Shown: positions 6,593 to 25,926 of the stretch, piece after piece
How positions within the stretch are numbered: the stretch's first letter is position 1
Layout: each line of letters begins with the position of its first letter
Assembly (NCBI GenBank): GCA_002718735.1
Contig: PBFR01000011.1
Span: forward strand, 1-26,578
DNA: 26,578 nucleotides
Direction: 5' to 3'
From: Halobacteriovoraceae bacterium
GTDB taxonomy: Bacteria > Bdellovibrionota > Bacteriovoracia > Bacteriovoracales > Bacteriovoracaceae
Notes under the pieces: model-generated
The model's database searches: none
The model's input: only the letters and a program-made list of their open reading frames with translations
Told to the model about the DNA's origin: nothing
Made by a program: the position numbers and the translations under genes

Positions 6593-6719
6593 TTCTTAAG
6601 CTTAGTTCAGATTAAGTATATTTTAAAGAAGTTTATAGCAGCTTAAATGCTCTGTTTACACATGGAGTCATCCCTAGGCGGATTAACACTTCCTAATCAA
6701 ATCCTTTAATTTTAAAAGG

Positions 6720-6747: not shown

Positions 6748-6768
6748 AGATAAAACAAAGGTAATCAC

Positions 6769-7686: not shown

Positions 7687-7702
7687 GACACCCCCAATTG
7701 GA

Positions 7703-8707: not shown

Positions 8708-8756
8708 ATTGACTCCTATTTTATAAATCTTTTATTTCGGAACAAATTAAGTGACT

Positions 8757-10157: not shown

Positions 10158-10278
10158 CTCCCCTCCTTTCCTAGGTTGTTGTGACTGGGAGGTGAGTTTG
10201 CAATAGTGGGGCCAAACGATCGGGTAAATATTCTATAAACTTGACGCACCTCTCAAGTCGAAGTGGTGTCGACATGCC

Positions 10279-10302
10279 GACCCTTTTTAAGATTTTAGGG
10301 TC
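10279..10302. repeat. Inverted repeat in the leader between secreted-protein genes
   Basis: GACCCT (10279-10284) and AGGGTC (10297-10302) form a perfect 6-bp inverted repeat around a T/A-rich 12-bp centre. It lies between the end of the 289-aa gene and the start of the collagen-like gene. Neither strand has the T-run expected of a terminator, so it may be an operator or a processing hairpin. The 163-bp gap must also hold any separate promoter for the collagen-like gene; none is convincing. Confidence 0.3.
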
Positions 10303-10320
10303 ACTATGACTAAAGTTTTT

Positions 10321-12763: not shown

Positions 12764-13081
12764 CAGTAACTAATCGACATAAATTAGGAAAAACTTAAGG
12801 TACATAAATGTAAACAACTGTAATCTCGTGCAAAGTAAGAGGGCCAGCTTAATTTCTAACCCCCAGAGACTTAGACAAGCCCAATACAAAATAAAATATG
12901 TTACCAACCTGATTTAGCTTCTAAATTCACCTAAAGGACTTCAGATAAAAGGATTTGATCGATTTCACCTTAAGCCAGCTTTAGTTTTGTAAATTTTATT
13001 TAACATCCATTTAATGAACCTTGGGGTTTGGCGTGCAATATTTTTATTCGTGGTAACAACAAACATTCCAAAGGAGGAATT
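12764..13081. other. 318-bp intergenic region between divergent genes
   Basis: This stretch separates the start of the 538-aa secreted protein (minus) from the GTG start at 13082 (plus). It is AT-rich and should carry promoters for both. I see one reasonable plus-strand promoter (12987-13015) and no convincing minus-strand one. No coding signal, RNA gene or terminator stands out. Confidence 0.6.
12987..13015 (+). promoter_or_regulatory. Possible promoter for the small periplasmic protein/DUF1328 operon
   Basis: TTGTAA (12987-12992) and TTTAAT (13010-13015) are separated by 17 bp. This would give a leader of about 60 nt before the GTG at 13082. Each hexamer is an incomplete match to consensus. 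Confidence 0.3.
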
Positions 13082-13420
13082 GTGAAAATTACAACTGGAC
13101 TGATCTTTTTACTATCTTTTGCTATCTCAAGTGCGTTTGCAATGAGCAAAGAAGAATTTAAAGAAAGCGCACAGGACAAGTTAGAAATGATCGAAGACAA
13201 GCTCGAAACTGTTGAAGAAAAGATGGCAGGAGCTCAAGGAGAAACGAAAGCAAAAATGGAAAACGCTTACGAAGACCTCATAGACCAAAAAGATGATCTT
13301 AAGGAAGATCTAAAAGAGGTATCGGAAGAAGCATCTGAAGGTTACGAGGAGTTTAAGAAAGAGTTTAGCGATGGAGTTGCTGAACTAGAGAAAAAAGTAA
13401 ACGAATTACTTAATTCATAA
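13082..13420 (+). CDS. Small periplasmic helical (coiled-coil) protein
   Basis: The product is 112 aa from a GTG start with a strong SD (AAAGGAGG, 4 nt upstream). This start gives a clean signal peptide, KITTGLIFLLSFAISSAFA. Starting earlier would put an implausible hydrophilic stretch before it. The mature protein (about 92 aa) is almost all charged amphipathic helix, rich in Glu and Lys with repeating KLE/DDLKEDLKE blocks and no Cys. It is probably an elongated coiled coil or apolipoprotein-like helix in the periplasm. The next gene, a DUF1328 membrane peptide, begins 15 bp after the stop, so the two form an operon. Function is unknown; an envelope-stress role is only a guess. Confidence 0.78.
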   Translation: MKITTGLIFLLSFAISSAFAMSKEEFKESAQDKLEMIEDKLETVEEKMAGAQGETKAKMENAYEDLIDQKDDLKEDLKEVSEEASEGYEEFKKEFSDGVAELEKKVNELLNS

Positions 13421-13435
13421 CCAAGGGAGGTTTTG

Positions 13436-13618
13436 ATGTTACGTTGGGCACTGATATTTTTTCTAATTTCAATAGTGGCCGCCGTATTTGGCTTTGGCGG
13501 AATCGCAACCGCAAGTGCCGGGATGGCGCAGATACTGTTTTATCTATTTTTAATCGGCTTTGTAGTAGCTATGGTTATGCACTTTGCTGGAAAAGTTGAC
13601 AATAAAACAGGTGTTTAA
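13436..13618 (+). CDS. ytjA: DUF1328 (YtjA-like) small membrane protein
   Basis: This 60-aa protein has the DUF1328/UPF0391 form: [29 protein letters not shown] then a second hydrophobic segment (about 31-50) and a short polar tail. The MLRWA start and the FGFGGIA turn are typical of the family. A TTG in frame just upstream would add one residue, but the ATG at 13436 has GGGAGG 5 nt upstream and fits better. Homologues are widespread two-helix inner-membrane peptides of unknown function. It is co-transcribed with the helical periplasmic protein and followed at once by a terminator. Confidence 0.88.
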
Positions 13619-13630
13619 AACAAAACCAAA

Positions 13631-13669
13631 AGTGAGGGCCTGTTCTATGGCCCTCACTCACATCACTTT
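13631..13669 (+). terminator. Terminator after the DUF1328 operon
   Basis: A perfect 10-bp stem (13631-13640 with 13649-13658) closes an 8-nt loop 12 nt after the DUF1328 stop. The following T tract is weak and interrupted, so termination may be partial or use another factor. Confidence 0.65.
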
Positions 13670-13687
13670 TAGACATTCCATGCCTGT

Positions 13688-13715
13688 TTGAAATTCTTCT
13701 CGATTCAGTTATATT
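13688..13715 (+). promoter_or_regulatory. Probable promoter for the MipA/OmpV gene
   Basis: TTGAAA (13688-13693) and TATATT (13710-13715) are 16 bp apart, a good sigma70-like match. Transcription would begin near 13722. This is only about 9 nt before the GTG at 13731 and about 37 nt before the in-frame ATT at 13759, which bears on the start problem of the next gene. Confidence 0.5.
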
Positions 13716-13758
13716 TAGTACTTTATTACTGTGAAACAGACAAATAAGCGAGAAGACA

Positions 13759-14595
13759 ATTTACAATCTATTAGGGCCAGCTTTTTTATTAATCCTTTTA
13801 ATTGGCGAGTCCTCCGCTCAAATTTCCAAGAACTTCACAAAAAAGAAACAGCCTATATACGAGATTGGTGCAGGAATCATATCTCTAAGCTTGCCCAACT
13901 ACCCTGGTGCACAGTCTACGACACTTAGAACGATTCCGTTTCCTTGGATAATTTATAGAGGTGAATATCTTAAATCTGATGAAGAAGGAAGCCGGCTTCA
14001 GATAATAAAGGACAAGGGTTTTGAGTTTGGAGTAAGCGGTGGATTTAACTTTCCAATTAAGAGTGAAGAAAATGATGCAAGAAACGGAATGCCTGACACG
14101 GATGCGCTTCTTGGCTTTGGGCCAAGTTTAATATTTCGCTACCCCACAGAGAGTAAACTCACTAGGTTAACATTCGGTCTTGGCCTCAGAATCAACTATT
14201 CTATAGCTCCTTCATTCACGTTTAGAGAACAAGGTTTTGTCGCTGAGCCAAACATTAAGTATTGGCACCGCCCATCTAAAGAAAGCCCTTATACATTCTT
14301 CTCAAGATTCAGTGTCGCCTTTGCCGATGAAAGCTATAATAATTTCTTTTACGGTGTAAAAAATGAGTTTGAAACACCCACTCGAGAAGCTTTTGACGCC
14401 CTTTCAGGAGTCGTGGACATTGGGGCCTCTTTAGGATTTTCGGTTGAGCTTACAAAGAACTTGTTTCTATTTACCAGTGGCTTTTACTCAAACCTCACCC
14501 TTGCGGCCAACAAAGAAAGTGATCTTATTGAGGAGCACCACAATACAGGCTTTATTTTCGGCCTATCTTGGATGTTGTTTGAAAAATATCTTTAA
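13759..14595 (+). CDS. mipA: MipA/OmpV family outer-membrane protein, start abnormal or frameshifted
   Basis: The open frame gives a signal-peptide core LLGPAFLLILLIGESSAQ, then the MipA/OmpV pattern: YEIGAGIISLSLPNYPGAQ, RTIPFPWIIYRGEYL, a GMPDTDALLGFGPSL strand, SYNNFFYGVKNE and a final LFLFTSGFYSNLTL hairpin. Members are beta-barrel outer-membrane proteins linked to murein synthesis complexes. The frame has no ATG, GTG or TTG between its upstream stop (13732-13734) and the signal peptide. The best in-frame candidates are the rare ATT at 13759, used here, or TTG at 13891, which would remove the signal peptide. A GTG at 13731 in another frame encodes KQTNKREDN and would join the barrel frame if one base near 13756-13763 were removed. 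So this is a frameshift, sequence error or unusual start. Confidence 0.72.
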   Translation: MYNLLGPAFLLILLIGESSAQISKNFTKKKQPIYEIGAGIISLSLPNYPGAQSTTLRTIPFPWIIYRGEYLKSDEEGSRLQIIKDKGFEFGVSGGFNFPIKSEENDARNGMPDTDALLGFGPSLIFRYPTESKLTRLTFGLGLRINYSIAPSFTFREQGFVAEPNIKYWHRPSKESPYTFFSRFSVAFADESYNNFFYGVKNEFETPTREAFDALSGVVDIGASLGFSVELTKNLFLFTSGFYSNLTLAANKESDLIEEHHNTGFIFGLSWMLFEKYL

Positions 14596-14627
14596 GCTTT
14601 CTTTTCTATGACTAGCAACTATAAAGC

Positions 14628-14655
14628 TTGATAACTCCATTTTATTCATTAAAAT
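14628..14655 (+). promoter_or_regulatory. Probable promoter for the DUF3124 lipoprotein gene
   Basis: TTGATA (14628-14633) and TAAAAT (14650-14655) are 16 bp apart. They place the transcript start about 27 nt before the ATG at 14689, with GGAAG in the leader as SD. Confidence 0.45.
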
Positions 14656-14688
14656 TACTGTAGAAATATTTAAATCGGAAGTCTTATT

Positions 14689-15216
14689 ATGAAATTACTA
14701 ATCAAAGTCATTGTGACCTGTATGTTTTTAGTCTCCTGTAATGAGCGAATGCCTAAAAGAGCTGTGAAGGATAGTGTGGTGCCAAGCTCAGAGAACTTTG
14801 CTCCAGCTGGAGAAATCACTGCTAGATTGATACACGGACAATCAGTATACGTGCCTATATACTCTAGCATTTACAACCGCTTCGAGGGTGATTTACTCCA
14901 CCTTACTGCAATTTTAAGTATTAGAAACACCTCCCCTAAAGAATCAATTGTAATCTCACAAATTGATTACTATGACACCAATGGAAAAAGAATAAAGAGC
15001 TTTATCGACAGACCCTTCTCTCTGTCTAAGATGTCTTCTAAAGATTTTGTTATTCCAGAGTCCGACTTATCTGGAGGAACTGGAGCAAACTTTATTGTTA
15101 AATGGGAAACTCAAAATAAGATTTCTGCACCAGTTATTGAGGCAGTAATGATAGGATCAATAGGAACAAAGGCATTCTCCTTTACATCTAGGGGAAAGGA
15201 AATAGAGGCACATTAA
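14689..15216 (+). CDS. DUF3124 lipoprotein
   Basis: The protein is 175 aa with a type II signal peptide: a Lys-led hydrophobic segment and the lipobox LVSC with C17. The mature part has the DUF3124 blocks: HGQSVYVPIYSSIY (about 49-62), LTAILSIRNTSPKESIVI, IDYYDTNGKRIKSF, SGGTGANFIVKW and PVIEAVMIGSIGTKAFSFTSRGKEI. It should be anchored to the inner or outer membrane facing the periplasm; the family has no established biochemical role. The residue after the lipid Cys is Asn rather than Asp, which by the E. coli rule favours the outer membrane, though that rule may not hold here. It is transcribed alone, between the MipA gene and a convergent minus-strand pair. Confidence 0.88.
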   Translation: MKLLIKVIVTCMFLVSCNERMPKRAVKDSVVPSSENFAPAGEITARLIHGQSVYVPIYSSIYNRFEGDLLHLTAILSIRNTSPKESIVISQIDYYDTNGKRIKSFIDRPFSLSKMSSKDFVIPESDLSGGTGANFIVKWETQNKISAPVIEAVMIGSIGTKAFSFTSRGKEIEAH

Positions 15217-15240
15217 AAAAAGGCCAGGTTTGACCTGGCC
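15215..15240 (-). terminator. Strong intrinsic terminator for the minus-strand small-protein pair
   Basis: An 8-bp perfect stem (15222-15229 with 15233-15240, 3-nt loop) is followed on the minus strand by seven consecutive T residues (15221-15215). It lies 11 nt beyond the stop of the 29-aa gene. It also sits at the stop of the plus-strand lipoprotein gene and may act in both directions, though the plus-strand T run is poor. Confidence 0.85.
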
Positions 15241-15251
15241 CTCTTAATGCA

Positions 15252-15341
15252 TTAATTATTTCGCATAACTTCAAAGGCTATCAACGCAGCAGTCAATACA
15301 AGAAAGCTGAGCATGAAAACCCACTCTTTAAAGTTTTTCAT
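15252..15341 (-). CDS. 29-aa single-pass membrane peptide
   Basis: A short frame encodes MKNFKEWVFMLSF... ending in EVMRNN. It has a charged Lys/Glu head, one hydrophobic helix (about 8-23, VFMLSFLVLTAALIAF) and a short basic tail. Support for a real gene comes from the AAGGA SD 6 nt before the ATG at 15341, the membrane-helix composition, and a strong terminator 11 nt after the stop. It lies 36 bp downstream of the 104-aa secreted protein on the same strand. I do not recognise a family. It could be an accessory subunit, a regulator of a membrane protein or a type I toxin-like peptide; nothing distinguishes these. Confidence 0.62.
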   Translation of the reverse strand: MKNFKEWVFMLSFLVLTAALIAFEVMRNN

Positions 15342-15377
15342 AATCATTCCTTAGTTAAATATTTCAAATGATAATTT

Positions 15378-15692
15378 TCAATTAAGAAATGGTGGTGAGC
15401 GACTTCCTATACTTTTTGACAGTATTAGTCTCTGAATATTACTTAGAACGTTATAATCAAGGTCGGACTCAATTTGACCAGGTGAATAACCGTCAGAAGA
15501 ATTTGAGAGAAGAAATTCACGTCCATCGACAGGTTCGAATGTAATCGACTTACCTGCCGCTCCGGACAGTGTGTGTCCGTTATTTAAAGCATTTATAGAT
15601 GAATTCTGATTTAGGTCAAATGCTAATGTACTAGGTTGGAAAGTAAACCCAGTACAAAAAAGTATTAAATATATACAGATGAATCTAATCAT
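15378..15692 (-). CDS. Small secreted protein of unknown function, 104 aa
   Basis: The frame begins with a signal-peptide-like stretch (MIRFICIYLILFCTGFTF...TLA, about 1-24). An Asn/Ser-rich mature part of about 80 residues (DLNQNSSINALNNGHTL, GREFLLSNSSDGYSPGQ) has no Cys. The ATG at 15692 has no clear SD and lies close to the divergent promoter region, so the start is uncertain. Its position upstream of the 29-aa gene and the shared terminator at 15215-15240 support transcription from this strand. No family is recognised. Confidence 0.5.
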   Translation of the reverse strand: MIRFICIYLILFCTGFTFQPSTLAFDLNQNSSINALNNGHTLSGAAGKSITFEPVDGREFLLSNSSDGYSPGQIESDLDYNVLSNIQRLILSKSIGSRSPPFLN

Positions 15693-15734
15693 CTTTTGAG
15701 AGATCGCATTTCATATAAAGACTTATGTTTATAC

Positions 15735-15751
15735 CTATAATCATGTTATAG
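15735..15751 (+). promoter_or_regulatory. Palindrome over a -10-like element, divergent region
   Basis: CTATAA (15735-15740) and TTATAG (15746-15751) form a perfect 6-bp inverted repeat around a 5-bp centre. The left arm runs into TATAAT (15736-15741), a consensus -10 for the gene starting at 15759. That would leave a leader of only about 11 nt, nearly leaderless. No good -35 was found. It may be an operator for the divergent genes. Confidence 0.3.
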
Positions 15752-15758
15752 TCACTCC

Positions 15759-16142
15759 ATGGAAGGCAAAGAATACATTAACAAATTCAGCACAGAACAG
15801 TTAATCAGATCAGTTCGTTTTACCGCGTTCTTATTGCTTGGCTACTTTGCTCTTTGCTCCACTATTTACGACCCTATAGTCTTAGTGGATGATACTCCAA
15901 GAAAACCATTTTTCAAAAGCGTTTTAACATCTTCTGGTGCGAACTTTATACATTCCAGTGCCAGACACAAGATATCCGATAGGCCAGAGAAACAAGAAAG
16001 TGCTCAAATTGCAATCCCAGTTAAGAGAGTTGCCCTGCAGGCACTTCCTTTCTTTTTATGCTTACTTTTCTTAACAATCCTTACTCAAGAACAAAGTAAA
16101 CTGTTCTCAAAATCACTCCTCATTAGGGCCCCCTCGGCCTAA
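15759..16142 (+). CDS. Two-helix membrane protein of unknown function
   Basis: The protein is 127 aa. Hydrophobic segments lie at about 18-35 (VRFTAFLLLGYFALCSTI) and 90-107 (VALQALPFFLCLLFLTIL). They flank a polar loop of about 55 residues with basic and Ser-rich stretches. Both ends are polar and probably cytoplasmic, with the loop in the periplasm. The ATG lacks an SD; the nearest -10-like TATAAT is only 17 nt upstream. A terminator follows at 16167. No family is recognised and the gene is not tied to a pathway by its neighbours. Confidence 0.6.
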   Translation: MEGKEYINKFSTEQLIRSVRFTAFLLLGYFALCSTIYDPIVLVDDTPRKPFFKSVLTSSGANFIHSSARHKISDRPEKQESAQIAIPVKRVALQALPFFLCLLFLTILTQEQSKLFSKSLLIRAPSA

Positions 16143-16166
16143 GCAGAAAATTCGTCTAATTTGAAA

Positions 16167-16194
16167 AGACCAATGACTTGGTCTGCGATTTTTT
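16167..16194 (+). terminator. Intrinsic terminator after the 127-aa membrane protein gene
   Basis: A 7-bp perfect stem (16167-16173 with 16178-16184, loop TGAC) is followed, after four bases, by six T residues (16189-16194). It ends the upstream transcript 25 nt after its stop. It sits only 15 nt before the next start (16210), so the next gene either depends on read-through or starts its transcript very close to its SD. Confidence 0.75.
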
Positions 16195-16209
16195 ATGCTC
16201 GGAGGAGAG

Positions 16210-16716
16210 ATGAAGCTTAAAGTTAAAGCGTTCATATACCTCATCTTGCTGGCTGTTCTTATCACTGGAGGACACTACGGTCTTTCCAAAGTAGAGCTTG
16301 ATGAAGGGAAAATGATAGGTAGAGTAATAAGCATCGAGAAGAAGTCTCTGTTTTTTGATACCTACAACTTAAATTTATTTGTAGAGGGAAAGATAGTTTC
16401 TTTAACTATTGAAGATATGGATTTAGTCAGAGAGGTAATGAATAATGACTCTGAACACGTAGAGCTAATTTATACAGAAAGCATTACCAGAGGATTCAAC
16501 ATCTCGAACATGACTGTTAAAAGGCTAAGCAAGTTAGAAAAGAAGGTGGATCGACTGAGTGAGATAAAGTCCTTAATTGACAAGAATCTAGTTTGTTCAA
16601 TGCTTGGTGAGCTTAATCAAGACAAGGAACTCTACGATGAATTCATTAAGTATATTAAAACACATAGTAAGCATTCATTTAAGAAACTACTAAATTGTGG
16701 TCTTACGCTAAACTAA
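16210..16716 (+). CDS. Membrane-anchored or exported protein of unknown function, 168 aa
   Basis: The chosen ATG at 16210 has GGAGG 4 nt upstream. An in-frame ATG at 16195 would put the SD inside the gene. The product starts with a basic n-region and one hydrophobic segment (MKLKVKAFIYLILLAVLITGG, a signal anchor or uncleaved signal). A beta-rich domain follows (about 35-115: MIGRVISIEKKSLFFDTYNL, KIVSLTIEDMDLV, HVELIYTES), then a helical charged C-terminal part with Cys at about 130 and 164. It looks like a single-pass protein with a small periplasmic domain. No family is recognised. It converges on the siderophore operon. Confidence 0.68.
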   Translation: MKLKVKAFIYLILLAVLITGGHYGLSKVELDEGKMIGRVISIEKKSLFFDTYNLNLFVEGKIVSLTIEDMDLVREVMNNDSEHVELIYTESITRGFNISNMTVKRLSKLEKKVDRLSEIKSLIDKNLVCSMLGELNQDKELYDEFIKYIKTHSKHSFKKLLNCGLTLN

Positions 16717-16721
16717 TCTAA

Positions 16722-16746
16722 AGGAGAGCACCTAGCTAGCTCTCCT
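16722..16746. terminator. Hairpin between convergent genes, probably bidirectional terminator
   Basis: An 8-bp perfect stem (16722-16729 with 16739-16746) around a 9-nt loop lies exactly between the plus-strand stop at 16716 and the minus-strand stop at 16747. Neither side has a strong T run; the minus side has a short T-containing stretch. It would end the siderophore operon. Confidence 0.6.
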
Positions 16747-17655
16747 CTAGATATTTACATTTAGGCTAAGCCCAACATTGGTTCTGTCTGAACGGATATC
16801 CTCTGCGATAAATCGTAAGTTTGGAGCAATTGAGATGTCTCTATTAATGAAGTACGTCATTGCGATTGTCTGCTGTAGAGGTTGATGATCTAAATCATCT
16901 AGTTCATCCCCTCTCATTTGAAAATATACGCCTAGGTCTGTAATGGCCCTGAGTGCAAATTTTGGATTTAGGTAGTATTCCATTGCCAAACTAAGTTTAT
17001 ACTCCCTTTCTTTTTGATAAGGATATAGGGATGTCTTTCCAAGTAAAGGGTGTTCGGTGCTGGACTTATCAAAAAAGAATTGAGTGTAAGTAAATGTCCC
17101 TGCCAAATAAACCTTCTTTCCCAACGGAATTGCTGAGGCCTGACTAAATGCAAAGGCTGAGTCATAACCGTAATCAGTGTAAATACCACGTGTGCTATGT
17201 TGATATTTAAAAAAGCTTATGTTTTGAATGCTACCGACATAATAGGTTCTAAAGTAGCTAATCACAGGATCATCTAAATCTAGTCGTCCATTATTGTTAT
17301 TAAAATCTTCCTCATTCTTTGAAGAGTTGCCATCATAATTGGTATGGAAGGGTGCCGTCATATAGGTCCCCACTTGGAGAGACAAATTGTCTTTCTTTGA
17401 AAGTCTATATTTAATTCCCACAACACCACTTAGAGAGGTTAATCCGGGCTCCTCGGCCGCTTTGGTTATGTTTGGTCTTTCCGAACTTAGTGGTTTCTCT
17501 AAAGATCCCCCTTTGTAAGTGAATGTTGAATAGAGGCTCCAAGAGGATAAGGCCCCTGATAAAGTTTTTAATGTAGGGTTTTCAAGCACTTCTTCCTTAT
17601 CTGCGGATCCGTATGCAAGAATACTACTTATTACTAATATAAGTGTTAATTTCAT
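16747..17655 (-). CDS. Outer-membrane beta-barrel protein, last gene of the siderophore operon
   Basis: The protein is 302 aa with a signal peptide (about 1-18). From about 35 on it has amphipathic strands alternating with polar turns (WSLYSTFTYKGG, GVVGIKYRLSKKDNLSLQVGTYM, KVYLAGTFTYTQFFF, YKLSLAMEYYLNPKFALRAITDLGVYF, NVGLSLNVNI). This fits a barrel of perhaps 12 strands. There is no TonB box or plug domain and it is far too short for an IutA-type receptor (about 700 aa), although it sits where iutA follows iucD. An Asn/Asp-rich loop at about 109-128 is exposed. It begins 1 nt after the iucD stop, with an AGAGAG SD inside iucD, so it is translationally coupled. It might be a channel for siderophore release or uptake; the role is inferred only from position. 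Confidence 0.75.
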   Translation of the reverse strand: MKLTLILVISSILAYGSADKEEVLENPTLKTLSGALSSWSLYSTFTYKGGSLEKPLSSERPNITKAAEEPGLTSLSGVVGIKYRLSKKDNLSLQVGTYMTAPFHTNYDGNSSKNEEDFNNNNGRLDLDDPVISYFRTYYVGSIQNISFFKYQHSTRGIYTDYGYDSAFAFSQASAIPLGKKVYLAGTFTYTQFFFDKSSTEHPLLGKTSLYPYQKEREYKLSLAMEYYLNPKFALRAITDLGVYFQMRGDELDDLDHQPLQQTIAMTYFINRDISIAPNLRFIAEDIRSDRTNVGLSLNVNI

Positions 17656-17656
17656 T

Positions 17657-18946
17657 TTAAATCTCTCTTGTGTTTGGTGTAAATTTTAAAAGGTTAGAAT
17701 CTCTACTCAATACCTGATAAGAATCTTTCCCCGATAGGTCATTCACAATATTTGCTGATCTCCATGCCATAAGACTAATCTGTGGATCAGCAATGCCATG
17801 ATGATGACGACTTAGATTCATTGCATAGATTTTTCCTTCACCATCCCATTTAGTGGAAATACTATAATTGTCATTGATAACAGGCCTTTCATTATGATCG
17901 AATTGAATTTCTGAATAAAGCTCTCTCAAATAGTTGGGAAGGCTATTTCTAAAACCCGTTGCCAAGATAACAATATCAGCTTTATATTGCTCTGAAGTTT
18001 CAAACATCTCATTCAGAACAGTGGCTTTGTACAGACCTTCTTGGTGCTCCAGATGATCCAGCCACCGCATAGGAGCAATTTGGTAACTACAAAATGAATG
18101 ATGGTAGTTTTTATCTAGGTAGAGCTCATTGTAAAACTCTGATAAATAGGAAGGAGTATTTCCATCGCTTGTCAGAAGTTGCTTTTGAACAATACCCTCC
18201 TTTATATGAGGACTAGTTCTTAAAAAGGACTCGACATAACCAGGAGAGAAGAACTCATTTGTAAAGGCTCCCTCATCTAATGGCTGCAAGCTATCTCTAC
18301 CAGAAATAAGGGTAATTGATTCGGCACGCCCCCATTTTTCTTTTAGTCCATTTCTAAGAATCTCAACACCAGTTTGACCGCCTCCGATAATTAAAACCCT
18401 TTTACCTTCGAGGTTGGCGTTTTTCATTTCCATGGATTTGGCATGGAAAACCCTATCTCCAAGCCATTGCCTGGCACATGGAGGAATATTCTTAACAGGT
18501 CCAGATCCGATGCAGATATTCTTAGACAAGAATTCCTCTTTGCCTGTTTTCACGATAAAGAGATCTCCTTGCCTGTACACACTCTCAACAAGAGAGTTGA
18601 ACTGAATACTCTGTTCGAGTTGTTTTGAAACCCATGAACAATAGCCTTCAAACTCCACGCGACTTATATTTTGGCGTCCAGTATTCATAAAACCATAAAA
18701 TAAGTCATTCTTGACCAGATAATTCATAAAACTATAGGGACTCGTTGGATCAACCGGCGTCACCAAATCTTTCAAATATGAAGTTTGCATCGTGGAGTCC
18801 GAATGCATGAGCTCACTATGCCAGGAGAAACTTGGCTTATTATCCAAAAAACGGGAATTAAGATTTTTATGTTTATCAAGCAGCGCTGCGAGACTTAAAT
18901 TAAATGGCCCTAGACCAATTCCTAGTATGTCATACACTTTACTCAT
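17657..18946 (-). CDS. iucD: L-lysine/ornithine N-monooxygenase (IucD/SidA/PvdA family)
   Basis: This 429-aa flavoprotein should N-hydroxylate the terminal amine of lysine (IucD type) or a related amine, using NADPH, FAD and oxygen: the first step of hydroxamate siderophore synthesis. Visible motifs are the FAD site GIGLGPFNLSLA (9-20), HSDSTMQTSYLKDLVTPVDPTSPYSFMNYL starting at 48, the NADPH site IIGGGQTG (186-193), LATGFRNSLP (328-337), and the C-terminal HHHGIADPQISLMAWRSANI (381-400) characteristic of IucD. Length is close to E. coli IucD. It overlaps iucC by 4 nt (ATGA). Lysine is favoured by the IucD likeness and the absence of a decarboxylase gene here, but diaminopropane, cadaverine or putrescine cannot be excluded. 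Confidence 0.93.
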   Translation of the reverse strand: MSKVYDILGIGLGPFNLSLAALLDKHKNLNSRFLDNKPSFSWHSELMHSDSTMQTSYLKDLVTPVDPTSPYSFMNYLVKNDLFYGFMNTGRQNISRVEFEGYCSWVSKQLEQSIQFNSLVESVYRQGDLFIVKTGKEEFLSKNICIGSGPVKNIPPCARQWLGDRVFHAKSMEMKNANLEGKRVLIIGGGQTGVEILRNGLKEKWGRAESITLISGRDSLQPLDEGAFTNEFFSPGYVESFLRTSPHIKEGIVQKQLLTSDGNTPSYLSEFYNELYLDKNYHHSFCSYQIAPMRWLDHLEHQEGLYKATVLNEMFETSEQYKADIVILATGFRNSLPNYLRELYSEIQFDHNERPVINDNYSISTKWDGEGKIYAMNLSRHHHGIADPQISLMAWRSANIVNDLSGKDSYQVLSRDSNLLKFTPNTREI

Positions 18947-20685
18947 AATTTACTCTCTTCCATATTCCTAGCAATGGGATTTTTTATATTGTTTCCTAAA
19001 ATGGGTCTTAATCTTTGAGAAGTTTCACTGTAGCCAGAAACAAATCGAACTTTGTTCACTAGAACCTTCTCAAATTCAGACTTTCGTAGGTCCACACTAG
19101 AATCTATTTTGACTTCAGTGATTCTCAGGTAACTATCAATCACCTCACCAAGAACTGCGTAGAACTCTTTTTCAGGCAAAGACAAGCTCTCCTCCATCAC
19201 CCTGGAAAGATAGCGCAGTACAGTTACAAAGTGCCCAGTGTAGAGATCATGAATTAGATAGTGCTTTGGTAGACGTTCAAGAAAAGTAGTAAACTCACCT
19301 TCAACTGCAATACTGTCAGATACTCTTAGATCTCCGTGAAAGTCCTTAATAATCAGCCCTGATGGCCTAGAGTCCTCTAGTATCAGAATGGTGTTTTGAC
19401 CGTGGGCCACAAGTCCTATTCCATGCTTAACTTGCAAATGGTAAAGAGGTAGGACAACCTTATCAATATAATGCTTGAGCCACTCTTTTGGACTTAAACC
19501 AGAATCTAGAACATAGAACTTAATTAAATGCTCCCCATTATGATTCATGATTAGTGCACCTGTTGGCACGGCCCGTTCGCCACCACGCAATACAGATGCC
19601 ACACTCTCGCGCCAAACACAGCCCAGCAATTCTTTGTAACGGTAAGAGCATCCTTCAACATTTTGGTGAGACTCTAAAACCGCAGAGATTGCCGCCGTTT
19701 CTTTAAGAGTGCGAGTATTGCGCTCTTTGAAAAATTCATCCTTGCTTAATGTTTCATCTACAAATTTAGAGATTTCATATCCCACACCTACATACTTTTC
19801 AGGGAGCCCTCTAATGCAAGATGTATTTAGTATGGAAGTGGAGACTTTTATATCAAAGGCCATCGGATTATTAATGTTTGTCAGAGTTCTAATGGACGCC
19901 TGAGGAGTATAAAAGTCACCTAGTACCCCGATATACACCATATCCTTTTTAAAAATATAATCTTGATATTGAATGCGAATGTAGCGATCCCATTGCCATG
20001 GATGGACTGGAATCACATAATATAAGTCAGGATTTAAACCATGTTCTTCAAGTGAGACCCGCGTGCTCTCAATTTGGCGTTTATTCAATGAAGATAAAAG
20101 AAGATGCTCATATGAGATGTTTGGATCTATGCCGGCAGAAAGTTTCTCCTTTTTTATAGCAATCCAAATCAATTGAAATGATTGTCCAGATTCCGGAGTG
20201 TATGCGCAAAGCTCGCCTACCCCCCAACCGAGCCTACCTTTATTTAGTAAAAGCTTGGGATGCCCAGGCAGTAGTTGATCAATTTCGTGAAAGGACAGTT
20301 TTGAAAGCTCACTCGCGGTGTAAGCTTTTAGTCTATTAAACCTAAGGTCATCGCAATATAAGGTTTGATGCATCTCTTCTAGAAATTGACCAAGTGTCGC
20401 ATCATCAATCCCACACACCTCCTGAACTTCATAAAAAAACCTACCAGCAGTATAAACAGCTTGCTCAAGGCCGTCTTGGAATTTTTGGAGGGAATCCACT
20501 TGCACTTGAATATTATTCCATGCTCCAATCTTTCCCTTAAATCGATATTCGATATTATTTCCAGCTTCTAACTTCCACATTTTCTCATCAATCTTCTGAA
20601 GCTGTAATAATTCTTCAAACTGTAACTCTTCAATGGCCTTTACAATCAATGCCCTATTAAAGAAAAAAAGATGCCTACCACTCAT
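18943..20685 (-). CDS. iucC: IucC-like NRPS-independent siderophore (NIS) synthetase
   Basis: This 580-aa protein matches E. coli IucC in length. NIS synthetases activate a carboxyl group of citrate with ATP and condense it with an amine; IucC adds the second N-acyl-N-hydroxylysine. Motifs: GHPKLLLNKGRLGWG (141-155), IPVHPWQWD (225-233), SIRTL (264-268), KVSTSILNTSCIRG (280-293), GLVAHGQN (424-431) and IKDFHGD (446-452). The FhuF-like C-terminal helices (about 465-560) are intact. It overlaps the NIS-GNAT fusion upstream and iucD downstream by 4 nt each, so production is tightly coupled. All expected motifs are present, so it should be active. Confidence 0.93.
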   Translation of the reverse strand: MSGRHLFFFNRALIVKAIEELQFEELLQLQKIDEKMWKLEAGNNIEYRFKGKIGAWNNIQVQVDSLQKFQDGLEQAVYTAGRFFYEVQEVCGIDDATLGQFLEEMHQTLYCDDLRFNRLKAYTASELSKLSFHEIDQLLPGHPKLLLNKGRLGWGVGELCAYTPESGQSFQLIWIAIKKEKLSAGIDPNISYEHLLLSSLNKRQIESTRVSLEEHGLNPDLYYVIPVHPWQWDRYIRIQYQDYIFKKDMVYIGVLGDFYTPQASIRTLTNINNPMAFDIKVSTSILNTSCIRGLPEKYVGVGYEISKFVDETLSKDEFFKERNTRTLKETAAISAVLESHQNVEGCSYRYKELLGCVWRESVASVLRGGERAVPTGALIMNHNGEHLIKFYVLDSGLSPKEWLKHYIDKVVLPLYHLQVKHGIGLVAHGQNTILILEDSRPSGLIIKDFHGDLRVSDSIAVEGEFTTFLERLPKHYLIHDLYTGHFVTVLRYLSRVMEESLSLPEKEFYAVLGEVIDSYLRITEVKIDSSVDLRKSEFEKVLVNKVRFVSGYSETSQRLRPILGNNIKNPIARNMEESKL

Positions 20686-22937
20686 AGATGCCCCTTCTCT
20701 TTAAAGAATACGTCCCTTTCACATTTCAACAGGGCAGATCGTTTATGAGGAAATTCAAATTCTCTTTGAAAGCTCCAGCCAGGCAAGGCCTGTGAAATCT
20801 TTAAGATCTTTTGATTATCAGAACGTGGTTCCCCCCAAAGGTTTTTTGTGTGCTCACAATCCTCAAACATATAATTGGATGCGTGTAAAATTGCGTAATA
20901 TGCACAACGGGTGTTTAAAAAGCGTTCTTCACCAATAAGAAGATGCAGACCTCTATCATATAGTTCAGCTTCACAATAAGGTGCAATACGATCATCATAG
21001 GCCCAGTAAATTTCAAAGTAACCAACGGGCTCCCCCTCAACCTCGAAGATGAGAGGAATTTGATAAGCTCCATTAAGAAGCTTTAGCAAGTATTCTTTGA
21101 GTTCTTCCCTGGATTTGTCCATTTCCCAAAACTCACTGACAAACTTTTTATTGTGCCAATTATGAAAAACCTCTAAATCATTCTCAGGATCTGCAACACG
21201 AAAACTAAGGGTCTTTTGCATTTTTGGCTCATAGGCCCGATAAACTTCACCTCTTCTTTCAACTTCTAAGCTTCTTAGCTCAGTCTTCAAAGGGTTTGGA
21301 ATTTTGTTATATATTCTCCAAGGGTCTTGAACAGTGTTTTCATTATGGCCTTCTAAACAGCAGCGGAAGTTGCCTTTTTGCCAAAGAGTCCCAGATTCAA
21401 GCAAAAAATCATAAATTGACGAATTACAAGATATCATTCTTAAATTAAATATGAAGTTTCTAAATTGAGTTAGTAGCTTTCTCTCCATCTCACTTTCAGA
21501 GTCTGCGATAGAGCTGATAACACTAAATACTGTATTAATGACAAAGTAATATACGAATACCTTATTCGTATCCTCATCACTTAGGATGTTTCCATTCTTA
21601 GGTGAAATGTGGGGGTGTTTCAATGCCAATTTTTCATAAGCTCTCTTAGAAAAACCACTGCCTTGGCAATCCCGATATATTGTTTTAACTGGAAGCGAAG
21701 AGCTCAATTGAACGATGATGTTTTGCATGTGGGCCCCAAGAAGTACGCCTTCTTCTGAAGCTAGTGTTAAAAGCGGTTTGGCGACAACACTTAAAAACTC
21801 ACCAAACCATTTCTTTGCTGCAATTTCATAATTCTCATCAAGTGTGCTTATTATTTCTTTTAAATAAGAAAATCCTTTAAATGGATTCTCTTCCACCACA
21901 GTTGCAAGTAAAAATGAATTTTTCCAGTCTAGGTTTTGACGAACTTGCACAATCGTCTCGGGGATCACCATTCCCTCTGTATTTGAAATTCCAGCAAACG
22001 ACGGTTCGGACATAACTTCCAGATCACCCACTGAATCCTTGGCTATATCGCGAAGAACTTTACTGATTTGAATCCCTCGCACGGCCTCTTTTTGCTGCAA
22101 GTGTCTAATTGAATTAGTAAGTGTTACATCCATTGAAAATTTCAATTGAGCTGGAGCACCATCACAGTATAAAGTCCTTAAAGAGGAAAGTGCATGCCAC
22201 TCATTCTTTCCATATCCGAGTTCAATAATTTCTTTGTTTTTGATTTTATTCTCTATGAGTTTTTTACTTCGAAGACGGCACCACTGCCATGGATGCATCG
22301 GAAGAAGCCTATAGTTTTCTTTCTTAATATGACTTGACTCATCTCCAATATCGAAAAAAGCAATATCTTCAAAAGAAACGTCACAAGTTTCATCTGAGTC
22401 AAGAATATAGGTACCGTTGACACAAGCAATCCAAAACAAATGTATACTTTTTCGAAACTCTGGGGAGTATTTTTCAACATCAGCTTTTTCCATCCCCTTT
22501 TTACACTTAGGGTACGGGTGAAATGGATGTCCCAAGAGTAGGTTTTGCTCACTTTTTAAATAATTAATCTCCGGATCGACACTACAATTCCTCTTACAAA
22601 GGATGGACTCCAAATTCTCTAGGGAGTTTTGAACATTGGCCATAAATAGATCAACAACACAGCCACTTGCGTGAGAATTGGCCAAAAGTACCACAAGCTC
22701 TTTAAACCCAATTGCCCTTTCTTTTTCACTAGAGCAAAACCAAATCCGACCTGTGTATTTGTGGGATCCAAGTAGAGAAAATTTTTCAAGCTCGATCTTT
22801 AAAAAATCAGGATCTCCTAAAGGCAGCTCAATAATATTATTTCCAATTACAACACCTCTTTCTTCTGCGTAATCACGTAAATAAGAATTCAAAAACGCTT
22901 TCATAGAATATTGCTGGGAGATAGTCTTAGGGCTCAT
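20682..22937 (-). CDS. iucA: Fused NIS siderophore synthetase (IucA-like) and N-acyltransferase (IucB-like)
   Basis: This 751-aa protein joins two aerobactin enzymes. Residues about 1-565 are an IucA/IucC-type synthetase with LLGHPFHPYPKCKKG (134-148), LLPMHPWQW (211-219), SSLRTLY (251-257), KFSMDVTLTNSIRH (266-279), GAHMQNIIV (401-409) and RDCQGS (422-427). Residues about 575-745 are a GNAT-fold acyltransferase of the IucB/RhbD type: FRVADPENDLEVFHNW, EFWEM, IPLIFEVEGEPVGYFEIYWAYDDR (from 627), DRGLHLLIGEERFLNTRCAYYAIL and EPRSDNQKI. The GNAT part would acylate the hydroxylated amine and the synthetase part would condense it with citrate. In known aerobactin loci iucA and iucB are separate genes. 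No frameshift or internal stop is present. The ATG overlaps the MFS stop by 4 nt. Confidence 0.9.
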   Translation of the reverse strand: MSPKTISQQYSMKAFLNSYLRDYAEERGVVIGNNIIELPLGDPDFLKIELEKFSLLGSHKYTGRIWFCSSEKERAIGFKELVVLLANSHASGCVVDLFMANVQNSLENLESILCKRNCSVDPEINYLKSEQNLLLGHPFHPYPKCKKGMEKADVEKYSPEFRKSIHLFWIACVNGTYILDSDETCDVSFEDIAFFDIGDESSHIKKENYRLLPMHPWQWCRLRSKKLIENKIKNKEIIELGYGKNEWHALSSLRTLYCDGAPAQLKFSMDVTLTNSIRHLQQKEAVRGIQISKVLRDIAKDSVGDLEVMSEPSFAGISNTEGMVIPETIVQVRQNLDWKNSFLLATVVEENPFKGFSYLKEIISTLDENYEIAAKKWFGEFLSVVAKPLLTLASEEGVLLGAHMQNIIVQLSSSLPVKTIYRDCQGSGFSKRAYEKLALKHPHISPKNGNILSDEDTNKVFVYYFVINTVFSVISSIADSESEMERKLLTQFRNFIFNLRMISCNSSIYDFLLESGTLWQKGNFRCCLEGHNENTVQDPWRIYNKIPNPLKTELRSLEVERRGEVYRAYEPKMQKTLSFRVADPENDLEVFHNWHNKKFVSEFWEMDKSREELKEYLLKLLNGAYQIPLIFEVEGEPVGYFEIYWAYDDRIAPYCEAELYDRGLHLLIGEERFLNTRCAYYAILHASNYMFEDCEHTKNLWGEPRSDNQKILKISQALPGWSFQREFEFPHKRSALLKCERDVFFKEKGHL

Positions 22938-24070
22938 ACAAAAACCTTTTTCTTTTTATTTATAGTTAGGTAGATATGTCCACACAGAACCGTGAATGCG
23001 AATAGTAAAATCAAATTAGATGACATACGATCAAAACTTAGGGCCGCACCCGCAAGCATTGCTCCAAGTGCATTACCCAAGGTTTGATAAAAGCTTATTT
23101 TTCCAGATATTAGAGTTTCACCCTTTCTTTGCTGACTAAAAATTTTGACAGAGTAGTCTAAAGGAATAAGAGCTGCGGCAAAAGAGACCAGTAAAATAAA
23201 GAGGATAAGAGAATTTAAGTCCTCGATCCTATGAAAAAAGTAGGCAGAGCCAACAAGAGATAAATAAGCTATGAAGTTGATAATGGCTACACGGTAGAGT
23301 GTGGTTTTCTTAAGAATTATTTGGAACAGTAATATAAAAAAAGCAATGACCAGTAGACCAAGGTATAAGGCCTTGGTTTGAAGAACTACCACTTTTTCAA
23401 AGTAGGAAACAGTCTTAGATAAGGATGTATTAAAGTAAGCGATGACACTCATAAAAAGCAGTGGTTGAAAGTAAATCAAACTTATGGCATTCGATGTTTC
23501 AGGTTGTTGGGCCTTGATTTGCTCTACACTTACACTCCAGAAGCAGATGCATAGATTCAAGATCATTGAGCACAGAATTGTTATCAAAAGCAGAGTTGTA
23601 ATATTGGTGTAGAAAATTAGCCCAAGAACAAGCCCGCTAAAACGTCCAACTGATAGCCAAAGGGAGTGACTTAACAGGCCACCAGCTTCACTCCCATGAA
23701 TCTGAGCTCTGAGTCCTTGAGACAAGGGAATTATAGAACTAGCACCGATTGCATGAATCAATCTAGAGGCAATAAACAGCATTCCTCCAGCTGAGGTGGA
23801 GTATATTGAAAAAAGTAGTGCACCATTGGATAATGCCAACCCTCCTGTTCCTGCTAGCAGGCTCTTTTTTACACCAATTTCAGGAATGAACTTTCCCCAC
23901 CATAGGGTGAATATCAAATAAATAAGGATACTCAACCCATATATAGAAACAACTATTGCTAGTGGAAGATTTAGTGCTTTAGACATAAAGGGAATAAGCC
24001 CTAGAATCATTGTTTGAGATGCACCAAATAAACAGGAGGCCAAAGATACGAGTATTAGAGACTTATTCAC
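22934..24070 (-). CDS. MFS transporter, probable siderophore exporter (ShiF position)
   Basis: The protein is 378 aa with eleven or twelve hydrophobic segments and few long loops. An early helix pair is joined by WWGKFIPEIGVKKSLLAG, which resembles the MFS loop 2-3 motif, and a polar break falls after helix 6 (VEQIKAQQPETSN, about 191-203). Family membership is clear from topology; substrate is inferred. It lies just before the synthetase genes, as shiF does before iucA in aerobactin loci, so export of the finished siderophore is likely. Its start is GTG, overlapping the PepSY gene stop by 4 nt (GTGA). AGG in the end of the preceding gene is too close to be a standard SD, so it probably relies on coupling. 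Confidence 0.82.
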   Translation of the reverse strand: MNKSLILVSLASCLFGASQTMILGLIPFMSKALNLPLAIVVSIYGLSILIYLIFTLWWGKFIPEIGVKKSLLAGTGGLALSNGALLFSIYSTSAGGMLFIASRLIHAIGASSIIPLSQGLRAQIHGSEAGGLLSHSLWLSVGRFSGLVLGLIFYTNITTLLLITILCSMILNLCICFWSVSVEQIKAQQPETSNAISLIYFQPLLFMSVIAYFNTSLSKTVSYFEKVVVLQTKALYLGLLVIAFFILLFQIILKKTTLYRVAIINFIAYLSLVGSAYFFHRIEDLNSLILFILLVSFAAALIPLDYSVKIFSQQRKGETLISGKISFYQTLGNALGAMLAGAALSFDRMSSNLILLFAFTVLCGHIYLTINKKKKVFV

Positions 24071-25293
24071 CTAGACCTCCTTCCTTCTCCCAGGAAGAGA
24101 TCATTAAATAGATAAATGGCCATTAGCACGGCCATAAAACCAACAGGCCCTTTCCATGTCTCTGAAGAATAGTAACTTATAAAAACGAGTATCATTGGGG
24201 CGAATATGATAAATAAAATAGATTTTTTCCTAAAGCTCTTAGGAAGTTTAATCGCTTCAAGATTAATAATCTTTTTCCGTGCTAGAAAGATAATAATTCC
24301 GCTTAAAGGTATAAGCGAGGCACCAAGTCCCATGATTGTCCAAAAGACTTTAAGAAGAACCCCACCATAGTTTCCAAAGTGAAGCGGTTCAGAAATTAGC
24401 ATTAGCTCCATATACCACGGCAATGAAACAACTTTCGAAACGTCACCGGATTGCCCTTCAACAAATAGTATTTTCTTTAAACTCCCCCTCTCCACAAGCA
24501 CCGCAAAATGCCCAGGTAGTGAAAACTCATTGTCAGGGTAAGAGACATAATCAATTGAAAAATCTGGCAGTGCCGTTTTTGCATTTCTTTGAACCGTTTC
24601 TATTTGAACATAATTTGAGTGTCCACTCTTTGATAAAAGCCTTTCAGAGTCTAAGCTAGACTTTAAAAACAACGAAATCATAAGACCGTTAAAGGAGAGC
24701 AGTATTCCAGTTAATGTGACCAATAGTATCCATGAAAAAGAGGCAAGTCCCCACTGCTTGTGTAAGATGCCAAGGCGAAGCCTGTTATTTACGGCCTTAA
24801 AGTTTTTGTAAAACTTGGGCGCTATTATGAATCCAGAAAGAAGGAGGAAGGTGATAAAAAGGCCAAGTAGCCCAACTAAGTATTTTCCCTTGCCAGGAAT
24901 CAATAACTCCCTGTGGATCGCTAGGGTGAGTGCAAGAAGGCCCTGGTCTTTAGATGTCTTTGAGTGAAGCAGCTTTCCCTGAGGATCAAATTTTAGTTTA
25001 ATGGCCCCCCTAAACTTTTCCTGACCTTCTTTTCCAAGTCTTGCTTGAAAATTGCCACTGTCATCTATAAATATGGACAGTAATTTCTTTGTTGGATAAT
25101 TTTTTAATACATACTCTTGCACATTAACAAAGCCATCAGAAGAAATTGATGCAGTGGTTTCAGGGCCCTGGCCTGAAAGCTCATCTTTCCAGATGAGTAT
25201 GGTTCCACTCAAGCAAAGGATGAAAAAATTTAATGCCAATGCCAGGCCCAAGATGCGATGAATTTTTATTGTTAGTCTGGTTAGTTTTTTCAT
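24067..25293 (-). CDS. PepSY-associated transmembrane protein, probable ferric-siderophore reductase
   Basis: The protein is 408 aa with about six membrane helices (about 16-34, 136-157, 184-206, 313-337, 358-374, 383-400) and two periplasmic stretches (35-130, 210-300) of PepSY type. Conserved histidines lie next to helices: H12 (KIHRILG), H127 (LAIHREL), H178 (LHKQWG) and H305 (EPLHFGNYGG), the usual heme or metal ligands of the PepSY-TM family. Relatives such as FoxB and PiuB are linked to ferric-siderophore reduction, and its place at the head of this operon supports that role. The ATG at 25293 gives the standard MKKLTRL...HR N-terminus, but no SD precedes it. A hairpin with a T run ends one base from the start. 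Confidence 0.85.
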   Translation of the reverse strand: MKKLTRLTIKIHRILGLALALNFFILCLSGTILIWKDELSGQGPETTASISSDGFVNVQEYVLKNYPTKKLLSIFIDDSGNFQARLGKEGQEKFRGAIKLKFDPQGKLLHSKTSKDQGLLALTLAIHRELLIPGKGKYLVGLLGLFITFLLLSGFIIAPKFYKNFKAVNNRLRLGILHKQWGLASFSWILLVTLTGILLSFNGLMISLFLKSSLDSERLLSKSGHSNYVQIETVQRNAKTALPDFSIDYVSYPDNEFSLPGHFAVLVERGSLKKILFVEGQSGDVSKVVSLPWYMELMLISEPLHFGNYGGVLLKVFWTIMGLGASLIPLSGIIIFLARKKIINLEAIKLPKSFRKKSILFIIFAPMILVFISYYSSETWKGPVGFMAVLMAIYLFNDLFLGEGRRSR

Positions 25294-25325
25294 AAAAAAT
25301 GGAGAGGGAGTGCGCCGCCCTCCCC
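25294..25325 (-). terminator. Terminator-like hairpin abutting the siderophore operon start
   Basis: On the minus strand an 8-bp GC-rich stem with one G-U pair (25325-25318 with 25308-25301, 9-nt loop) is followed by ATTTTTT, running straight into the PepSY ATG. It has the full form of an intrinsic terminator for the upstream 172-aa gene. It also leaves no room for an SD or a separate promoter for the operon. A second inverted repeat (25338-25344 with 25354-25360) covers the stop of the 172-aa gene. The pair could act as terminator plus antiterminator-like structure, but I see no complementary alternative fold. Confidence 0.7.
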
Positions 25326-25346
25326 AATCTTTTTGGTGTGTTAGTC

Positions 25347-25865
25347 TTATTCTCTAACACGCCCAGAAAGAGTAAAATCAATTGCAATGTGAGTTGCCCC
25401 AGGGCCACAAACACTTGCAGATCCTTCATCAGGAACAACAATACTTACGTGGTGCGGGTGCCCCCAGTAGAGGTACTTATTTAAAGCGAATTGTTTATCA
25501 AGCATATCCTTGCCTTCTAAACAATCAGAGTCTCCATTTAGTGCAAATGCCCTAGACTCAACAAACTTAACAGTTTCATTGGCATTGTCTGCAAAAAGCA
25601 AAACGCTATAGCTACAATTGGATCCACCTTGATCAAAGCTTGCTTTAACCAAAACGTTATCCAAAGTGTAATCTGTAGAAAGCTGGCTAAACTGAACATT
25701 AAACTTCTCATGGGCCTGAGTTCTCTCAACAGCTTCTTCAAAGGCATTGCAAACATAACCTGTAGATTTCGCAAGCCATCTCTCTCCTTCTAAAACCAAG
25801 TCCGAGTCCTGACTCATAGCAGAAGATGAAACGGCTAACATTAAACAATAAATAATTTTTTTCAT
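25347..25865 (-). CDS. Secreted protein with four cysteines, unknown function
   Basis: The product is 172 aa from the ATG at 25865, chosen because AAGGAG lies 6 nt upstream and the signal peptide (MKKIIYCLMLAVSSSAMSQ) starts there; the frame is open further upstream to 25946 without support. The mature part has cysteines at 39, 84, 115 and 153, allowing two disulfides. A GHPHHVSI motif (135-142) could bind a metal. The pattern of alternating strands suggests a small beta-rich periplasmic or exported domain. It lies 53 bp upstream of the siderophore operon on the same strand and has its own strong promoter. Whether it belongs to iron uptake is unknown. No family is recognised. Confidence 0.75.
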   Translation of the reverse strand: MKKIIYCLMLAVSSSAMSQDSDLVLEGERWLAKSTGYVCNAFEEAVERTQAHEKFNVQFSQLSTDYTLDNVLVKASFDQGGSNCSYSVLLFADNANETVKFVESRAFALNGDSDCLEGKDMLDKQFALNKYLYWGHPHHVSIVVPDEGSASVCGPGATHIAIDFTLSGRVRE

Positions 25866-25893
25866 AACGATCTCCTTGATGATTGTAAGAACG

Positions 25894-25922
25894 ACACTAG
25901 AAACAAAAGTTTGATATGTCAA
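25894..25922 (-). promoter_or_regulatory. Promoter of the 172-aa secreted protein gene
   Basis: On the minus strand a perfect -35 TTGACA (25922-25917) is followed after 17 bp by TAGTGT (25899-25894), a weak -10. The transcript would start near 25887, giving a 22-nt leader with the AAGGAG SD. The -35 is embedded in a palindrome (25907-25926). This may be the only promoter upstream of the siderophore operon visible in the window. Confidence 0.5.
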
Positions 25923-25926
25923 ACTT
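25907..25926. repeat. 20-bp palindrome, operator-like
   Basis: AAGTTTGA and TCAAACTT form a perfect 8-bp inverted repeat around TATG. It covers the -35 element of the promoter at 25894-25922, a classical position for a repressor site. It does not resemble a GATAAT-type Fur box. Confidence 0.6.

Follow-up and report, generated by a model that had tools for sequence, protein, structure and literature searches.

An aerobactin-type siderophore operon of Bacteriovoracia with a predicted small barrel in the receptor slot

Aerobactin uptake is a textbook example of TonB-dependent transport, and TonB-dependent receptors (TBDRs) combine a plug domain with a 22-strand barrel. We examined a 26,578-nucleotide stretch of DNA from a Halobacteriovoraceae bacterium (contig PBFR01000011.1, hereafter the window) that carries a compact minus-strand operon for a siderophore of the nonribosomal-peptide-synthetase-independent (NIS) type. 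On balance, we favor the view that this is an aerobactin-type operon, likely making aerobactin, in which the gene of an unrelated small protein, whose predicted role is that of an outer-membrane channel for re-uptake, takes the place of the TBDR gene.

The aerobactin operon iucABCD-iutA, compared here in E. fergusonii (locus L172) and Duffyella (L169), shares with the window the order IucA, IucB, IucC, IucD and the lysine-type residues of IucD, and supplies the nearest synthetases in the PDB. The window differs in fusing IucA to IucB, in encoding a 302-residue barrel instead of IutA, in placing PepSY_TM and major facilitator superfamily (MFS) genes co-directionally ahead of the fusion, whereas L172 and L169 have a divergent MFS gene, and in adding a secreted 173-residue head protein and another promoter palindrome. 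Operons of the rhizobactin 1021/schizokinen type, from S. meliloti (L170, which we take to be the rhizobactin locus, its record carrying no annotation) and from another member of the Bacteriovoracia (L163), likewise combine two NIS synthetases, an acyltransferase, and an N-monooxygenase. Their monooxygenases, however, are of the diamine type, unlike that of the window, and L163 adds aminotransferase and decarboxylase genes, of which the window has neither. TonB-independent siderophore receptors have been described (PMC5378763): FslE of Francisella, encoded by the penultimate gene of fslABCDEF, and LbtU of Legionella. Both are non-TBDR outer-membrane proteins for siderophores, as is predicted for the barrel, but LbtU and FslE serve legiobactin and rhizoferrin, unlike the aerobactin predicted here. 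The system is new in its receptor slot, head gene, and control, and is otherwise aerobactin-type.

A preliminary description of this DNA had placed six minus-strand open reading frames (ORFs) here, joined by four successive 4-nt overlaps and a final gap of 1 nt, and had likened their enzyme set and order to iucABCD except at the first gene, the fusion, and the tail gene; the ORF coordinates, Pfam searches, and locus comparison agree on all of this. Its choice of PepSY as the operon head does not hold, as the gene for the secreted 173-residue protein lies 53 nt upstream and is conserved at the head in relatives. The transcription unit very likely starts there, one gene earlier, behind a palindrome that the preliminary description had also missed. 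The features are as follows.

25909..25924, no strand: palindrome GTTTGACATATCAAAC in the minus-strand reading (GTTTGA-N4-TCAAAC), predicted iron-responsive operator
25347..25868, minus strand: secreted protein, 173 amino acids, likely the first gene; start at ATG 25868, according to alignment with relatives
25294..25326, minus strand: terminator-like hairpin and U-tract between the 173-residue gene and PepSY
24067..25293, minus strand: PepSY_TM protein, 408 amino acids (PF03929, 5e-33), predicted inner-membrane ferri-siderophore reductase
22934..24070, minus strand: MFS transporter, 378 amino acids (PF07690, MFS_1, 37.7 bits against a cut-off of 33.4)
20682..22937, minus strand: IucA-IucB fusion, 751 amino acids (Pfam IucA_IucC, FhuF, and Acetyltransf_8), NIS synthetase followed by N-acyltransferase
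18943..20685, minus strand: IucC-type NIS synthetase, 580 amino acids (Pfam IucA_IucC and FhuF)
17657..18946, minus strand: IucD-type N-monooxygenase, 429 amino acids (Pfam Lys_Orn_oxgnase)
16747..17655, minus strand: tail protein, 302 amino acids, modelled as an outer-membrane barrel, no Pfam family

All seven genes occur in the same order in the nearest metagenome-assembled genome (MAG; locus L001), with proteins 89-99% identical. The fusion-IucC-IucD-barrel core recurs in more distant relatives, for example in L002, where the proteins are 47-54% identical, and this recurrence makes the operon more than a chance arrangement. Operons were read in the window and in 29 Bdellovibrionota genomes (27 of the class of G001, plus G003 and G010), and all genome-wide statements below concern genomes of relatives. 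The idea that the DNA comes from a predator fits its lineage, the closest record being the Halobacteriovoraceae MAG SAT180, and found no support beyond lineage.

The receptor slot

The structure model of the 302-residue protein contains 12 strands and a short N-terminal helix (residues 27-33) at a mean predicted local distance difference test score (pLDDT) of 90.4. It agrees with the small tail barrel of the preliminary description, which had missed that this gene sits in the slot of the TBDR. In contrast to TBDRs, the protein has no plug and 12 modelled strands; it matches neither Plug nor TonB_dep_Rec nor any other Pfam family, even at an E value of 1, and has no sequence match in the PDB. 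Its best structural neighbors are FapF (10% identity) and the COG4313 channel (8%), followed by autotransporter and KdgM barrels. Both leading matches are 12-strand barrels like the model of the tail protein, but FapF is an amyloid exporter with a coiled coil. A helical plug gates the FapF channel (PMC5557850). Since the match to FapF starts at model residue 25, helix 27-33, which lies within a stretch rich in invariant residues, may gate the channel in the same manner.

In the window and in 11 genomes (G001, G002, G003, G005, G006, G009, G036, G056, G057, G089, and G129), the barrel gene is the one immediately following IucD. In 13 others, a TBDR gene follows IucD, either directly or past one or two ORFs of 127-263 residues (G008, G010, G015, G016, G017, G035, G051, G053, G054, G085, G088, G096, and G125). 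A TBDR is encoded nearby on the opposite strand in G007 and G014, neither a barrel nor a TBDR was seen in G110, and the operon is cut by the contig end in G004 and G012. None of the operons read has both, so that barrel and TBDR are mutually exclusive among them. Pfam identified Plug in all nine candidate TBDR ORFs checked and TonB_dep_Rec in seven of these (L154, L155, L008, L010, L153, L011, L160, L164, and L007 were checked; the others were recognized by a TBDR model). Across 40 loci, scanning ORFs of at least 500 residues with this model found a TBDR in 21 and none in the 11 barrel loci or in eight more; Pfam found none among the 20 window ORFs scanned. Among the intervening genes are a 127-residue ORF in L157, L161, and L164 (that of L157 has no Pfam family) and, in L153 (G125, 13607-14398), a gene for phospholipase A1 (PLA1), another family of 12-strand barrels.

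On a tree of IucC and IucD from 31 operons, the barrel state requires three changes, compared to a mean of 9.2 for shuffled barrel labels (0 of 500 shuffles as low as 3); branches with good support impose two of the three. The TBDR operons L007 and L008 are nested inside a 13-row barrel clade with a support of 100, and neither G007 nor G008 has a match to the barrel family. The family is present in 45 of the 129 genomes of the class. Ten matches are strong (450-517 bits), all directly behind IucD, and copies outside the operon score at most 323 bits; 35 genomes have only such copies, which in the genomes inspected lie on other contigs or far away. The exception is G056, which has a paralogue 24% identical on the opposite strand, 1.2 kb ahead of the operon (L149, 2790-3689). 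Leaving L001 aside, the operon barrels are 45-57% identical to that of the window.

The alternative that survives best holds that aerobactin is made but enters through a TBDR encoded elsewhere, with the barrel acting in siderophore export or as a helper porin. Several observations weigh against a barrel receptor: TBDRs of PF00593 are present in all six barrel genomes examined, and one of these could import the siderophore; incomplete MAGs make up many of the genomes, and some loci stop close to the operon; FapF, the best fold match, is an exporter; the barrel-family copies of the 35 genomes without an operon copy, together with the G056 paralogue, imply a family that is not devoted to siderophores; and PepSY is present in just six of the nine barrel operons whose head is visible (the window, L001, L006, L149, L151, and L152, but not L002, L003, and L150). 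Whole genomes were searched with an alignment of the operon receptors. G007, G008, G125, and G010, whose own rows are in the model, score 812-896 bits, whereas in the 11 barrel genomes no TBDR reaches the score of the operon receptors (195, 111, 104, 70, 68, 62, 40, and 28 bits; three without a match); in G004, where the operon is cut, the best score is 52 bits. Nine receptor rows left out singly still score 396-787 bits. With L007, L008, and L153 all removed from the model, these score 388-433 bits, compared to 172, 153, and 137 for the top-scoring TBDRs in G056, G057, and G009. The mutual exclusion of the two proteins in one slot and the complete absence of the barrel from both nested TBDR lineages also fit a receptor better than an exporter. 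We consider import by an unlinked TBDR unlikely, and among single readings of the predicted barrel we prefer that of a putative TonB-free receptor.

The enzymes and their predicted product

That the operon directs synthesis of a citrate bis-hydroxamate siderophore, as had been proposed, is well supported by its enzyme families. The fusion has as its best PDB match the aerobactin synthase IucA (5jm7, 211 bits), followed by matches of 90 bits, to a chain that aligns with the acyltransferase half, and 78 bits; the acyltransferase domain behind IucA belongs to PF13523 (5e-36) and is IucB-type. The 580-residue synthetase best matches the aerobactin synthase IucC (6cn7, 311 bits; next match 239). 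A tree of 66 NIS domains separates IucA and IucC types with a support of 100 and puts each window domain on its own side; among the IucC types, the Bdellovibrionota rows, L163 excepted, fall on a single branch (26 rows, support 99). Two operons of Shewanella (L011 and L012) have an IucA-IucB fusion of their own, of more than 900 residues, followed by IucD and a TBDR.

The choice of amine was examined at the active site of IucD, using alignments to five PDB chains and to 36 relatives. According to PMC8009421, SidA binds ornithine through K107, N293, N323, and S469, with K107 contacting the carboxylate, and the diamine hydroxylase DesB lacks these residues and has a clashing D391. The window IucD has K59, N230, Q389, and S391, the amino-acid-type set, and the counterpart of N323, located by eye, falls in an SDG stretch common to all non-diamine rows. 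Aside from L163, K59, Q389, and S391 are kept in all 27 Bdellovibrionota rows; position 230 is N in 23 of these and D in four, as in the IucD of E. fergusonii. The diamine-type rows L170, L173, and L163 instead have A, D, G, and L at the four positions. L163, from G014 of the same class, provides an inner control, since there the diamine residues are paired with genes for diamine synthesis (Aminotran_3 and Pyridoxal_deC); Pfam detects no aminotransferase or decarboxylase gene in the window operon. The L163 operon (6692-19460) comprises an amino-acid kinase, an aminotransferase, a pyridoxal-phosphate-dependent decarboxylase, an IucA-IucB-like fusion, the diamine-type monooxygenase, an NIS synthetase, an MFS protein, and a divergent TBDR, with the palindrome at its head.

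The amino-acid-type residues and the lack of aminotransferase and decarboxylase genes lead us to prefer lysine and aerobactin over schizokinen. Lysine is thus the predicted substrate of IucD, its choice over ornithine resting on kinship to IucD; the acyl group would be acetyl by analogy; and the product is likely aerobactin. This narrows the earlier choice among aerobactin, a schizokinen-like compound, and something new as regards the amine, and leaves the acyl group to analogy.

A variant siderophore is the second alternative, either a citrate-lysine frame that carries a different acyl group or a compound built on a diamine, like schizokinen or arthrobactin, and a change of receptor could follow such a change of ligand. 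The synthetase tree agrees with aerobactin short of proof: the Bdellovibrionota, the enterobacterial/Vibrio, and the RhbF/DfoC/L163 groups of the IucC side stand in unsettled order, the grouping of Bdellovibrionota with aerobactin-type IucA against L163 and L170 has a support of just 88, and the window IucC scores 311 bits with the E. fergusonii protein and 306 with that of S. meliloti. An attempt to name the product from this tree alone failed at the open order of the IucC groups. Less favorable to aerobactin as well, the top three PDB matches of IucD are diamine enzymes (192, 178, and 173 bits; MbtG 143), with no enterobacterial IucD among the 15 matches. The active-site residues and the missing diaminopropane genes, which L163 does have, speak for the amino-acid frame, and we give the variant siderophore slightly less credence than import by an unlinked TBDR. 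IucD does not cluster with non-siderophore monooxygenases, its PDB and plasmid relatives being mainly siderophore N-hydroxylases. The top NCBIfam name, histamine N-monooxygenase, scores 223 bits where the cut-off is 700 and was rejected.

Head gene and palindromic operator

The 173-residue protein begins with a signal-like stretch without a lipobox, as read from the sequence, and four cysteines are invariant across 30 aligned rows of its family. In L001, it occupies the same position and is 91% identical. Relatives head the operons of L001, L002, L003, L006, L007, L149, L150, L151, L157, L161, and L164, and in L153 one lies 3′ of the receptor gene. The cultured Halobacteriovorax isolate XZX-3 encodes a relative of this protein as well as one of the barrel (locus tags 14035 and 14065). 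The family was found in 24 of the 129 genomes. NIS genes are present in 27 of the 129, and these include 23 of the 24 (Fisher p 2e-20 with kinship disregarded, many of the counted proteins being themselves rows of the search model). The 24th, G128, has a match of 55 bits; at 100 bits or more, the family is present in 21 of 27 NIS-gene genomes and 0 of 102 others. These 27 comprise 26 from the NIS search (28 matches minus G036 and G131, whose matches were acetyltransferase-only) and G036, included since another of its contigs ends within the operon at IucD-barrel. The protein is modelled as a small beta barrel (pLDDT 90.8) whose fold matches, to lipocalins, ToxS, and BcnB, are all weak, so that a lipocalin-like resemblance is weakly suggested.

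Behind the head gene, 25288-25352 folds at -21.1 kcal/mol (z -3.96). The same hairpin is present in L001, and L149 has a hairpin-like stretch of different sequence, judged by eye. A terminator scan did not list the hairpin and U-tract at 25294-25326 despite the strong fold; a possible role is that of an attenuator.

The palindrome begins 56 nt before ATG 25868, matches at 12 of 12 positions, and overlaps a TTGACA -35 hexamer (25922-25917). It falls inside the longest possible ORF (TTG 25946) and is upstream solely of ATG 25868. No other window site matches with up to one mismatch. At 26 visible NIS operon heads, with gene starts set by the analyst, the best match is 12/12 in 13, 11/12 in seven, 10 in two, and 7-8 in four (L003, L010, L153, and L155). 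Among 344 other ORFs of the same loci, four reach 11, and three of these flank TBDR genes (the two sides of a single L007 site, and L153). The 129 genomes contain 287 palindrome sites, compared to 75 for the reversed pattern. We surveyed 35 proteins neighboring the first listed site in each of 30 genomes; among the 25 matched families listed, FTR1 (3), at least one FeoA, TonB (1), TBDR plug (1), Sdh_cyt (2), and CCP_MauG (2) occur, together with Kelch (3) and response-regulator (3) proteins. The palindrome adjoins FeoA in L206, a paralogue of the 173-residue protein in L210, and a TBDR in L232. Its location beside iron-uptake genes is read most simply as that of an iron operator, which GTTTGA-N4-TCAAAC probably is, and it likely marks an iron regulon of the Bacteriovoracia. 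The classical Fur box (GATAATGATAATCATTATC) reached at best 13/19 in the window (shuffle p 0.07). Of the 23 operon heads searched for it, L159 (15/19) and L010 (13/19) alone exceeded shuffles (p 0.01 or less), and it was set aside in favor of the conserved palindrome.

The weakest alternative, that the barrel is a bystander outer-membrane protein carried at the operon end, would suit a family so common in the class and the absence of the palindrome from off-operon copies (no 12/12 site among 20 such loci and a single site at 11/12), but it is very improbable given that the barrel stays directly behind IucD in 12 operons despite its divergence and that the scores set the operon copies apart from all others.

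Elsewhere in the window are a 1327-residue CheB-CheR-PAS-histidine kinase fusion overlapping a response regulator gene (2233-6592), four minus-strand genes without Pfam families (7703-12763; 334, 466, 289, and 538 residues), and a MipA-family barrel gene adjoining a DUF3124 gene (13891-15216). Scans of the window gave nothing at Rfam gathering scores and no tRNA with ARAGORN, and viral contigs contained no stretch with the fusion-protein patterns.

Proposed working and significance

From the families of the enzymes, IucD would hydroxylate lysine, the IucB domain would acylate the hydroxylysine unit, with acetyl by analogy, and the IucA domain and IucC would couple two such units to citrate. 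The product would leave through the MFS protein, a predicted exporter, though possibly an importer. We predict that the ferric siderophore re-enters without TonB through the 12-strand barrel, with the N-terminal helix as gate, and is bound in the periplasm by the 173-residue protein; that the PepSY protein reduces the iron and so maintains the inward gradient; and that Fe(II) passes on via Feo. The palindrome would shut the unit off under plentiful iron, and the hairpin behind the head gene would favor production of the 173-residue protein over that of the enzymes. An idea that PepSY is tied to the barrel type was rejected at the six-of-nine count given above; PepSY is also found ahead of TBDR operons (L007, L010, and L159) or 3′ of the TBDR (L155, L160, and L165). 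PepSY_TM and MFS-like parts form one ORF in L007 (7768-9972, 734 residues) and L151 (1897-4002, 701 residues), which hints at a coupling of reduction to transport.

A bolder form of this scheme, which we put forward as tentative and on the doubtful side, is TonB-free hydroxamate uptake in which a helix-gated 12-strand channel, drawn from an outer-membrane family of the Bacteriovoracia, replaced IutA, a secreted lipocalin-like "siderocalin" traps ferric aerobactin, and the whole set is under the palindromic operator, for which we found no match among known operators. Within a closed prey cell the siderophore would be undiluted, so that a passive gated channel with periplasmic trapping and reduction could substitute for TonB energy.

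Among the papers listed in literature searches, none appears to describe this operon and none shows siderophore biosynthesis in Halobacteriovorax-type predators. An unrelated barrel in the receptor slot, in a clade that includes two members with a TBDR and no barrel, is an experiment of nature on the requirements for a siderophore receptor. The 173-residue protein is a marker gene of unknown family, and the palindrome is a testable operator that apparently marks a class-wide iron regulon. For Halobacteriovorax-type predators, the operon would offer a concrete route of iron supply.

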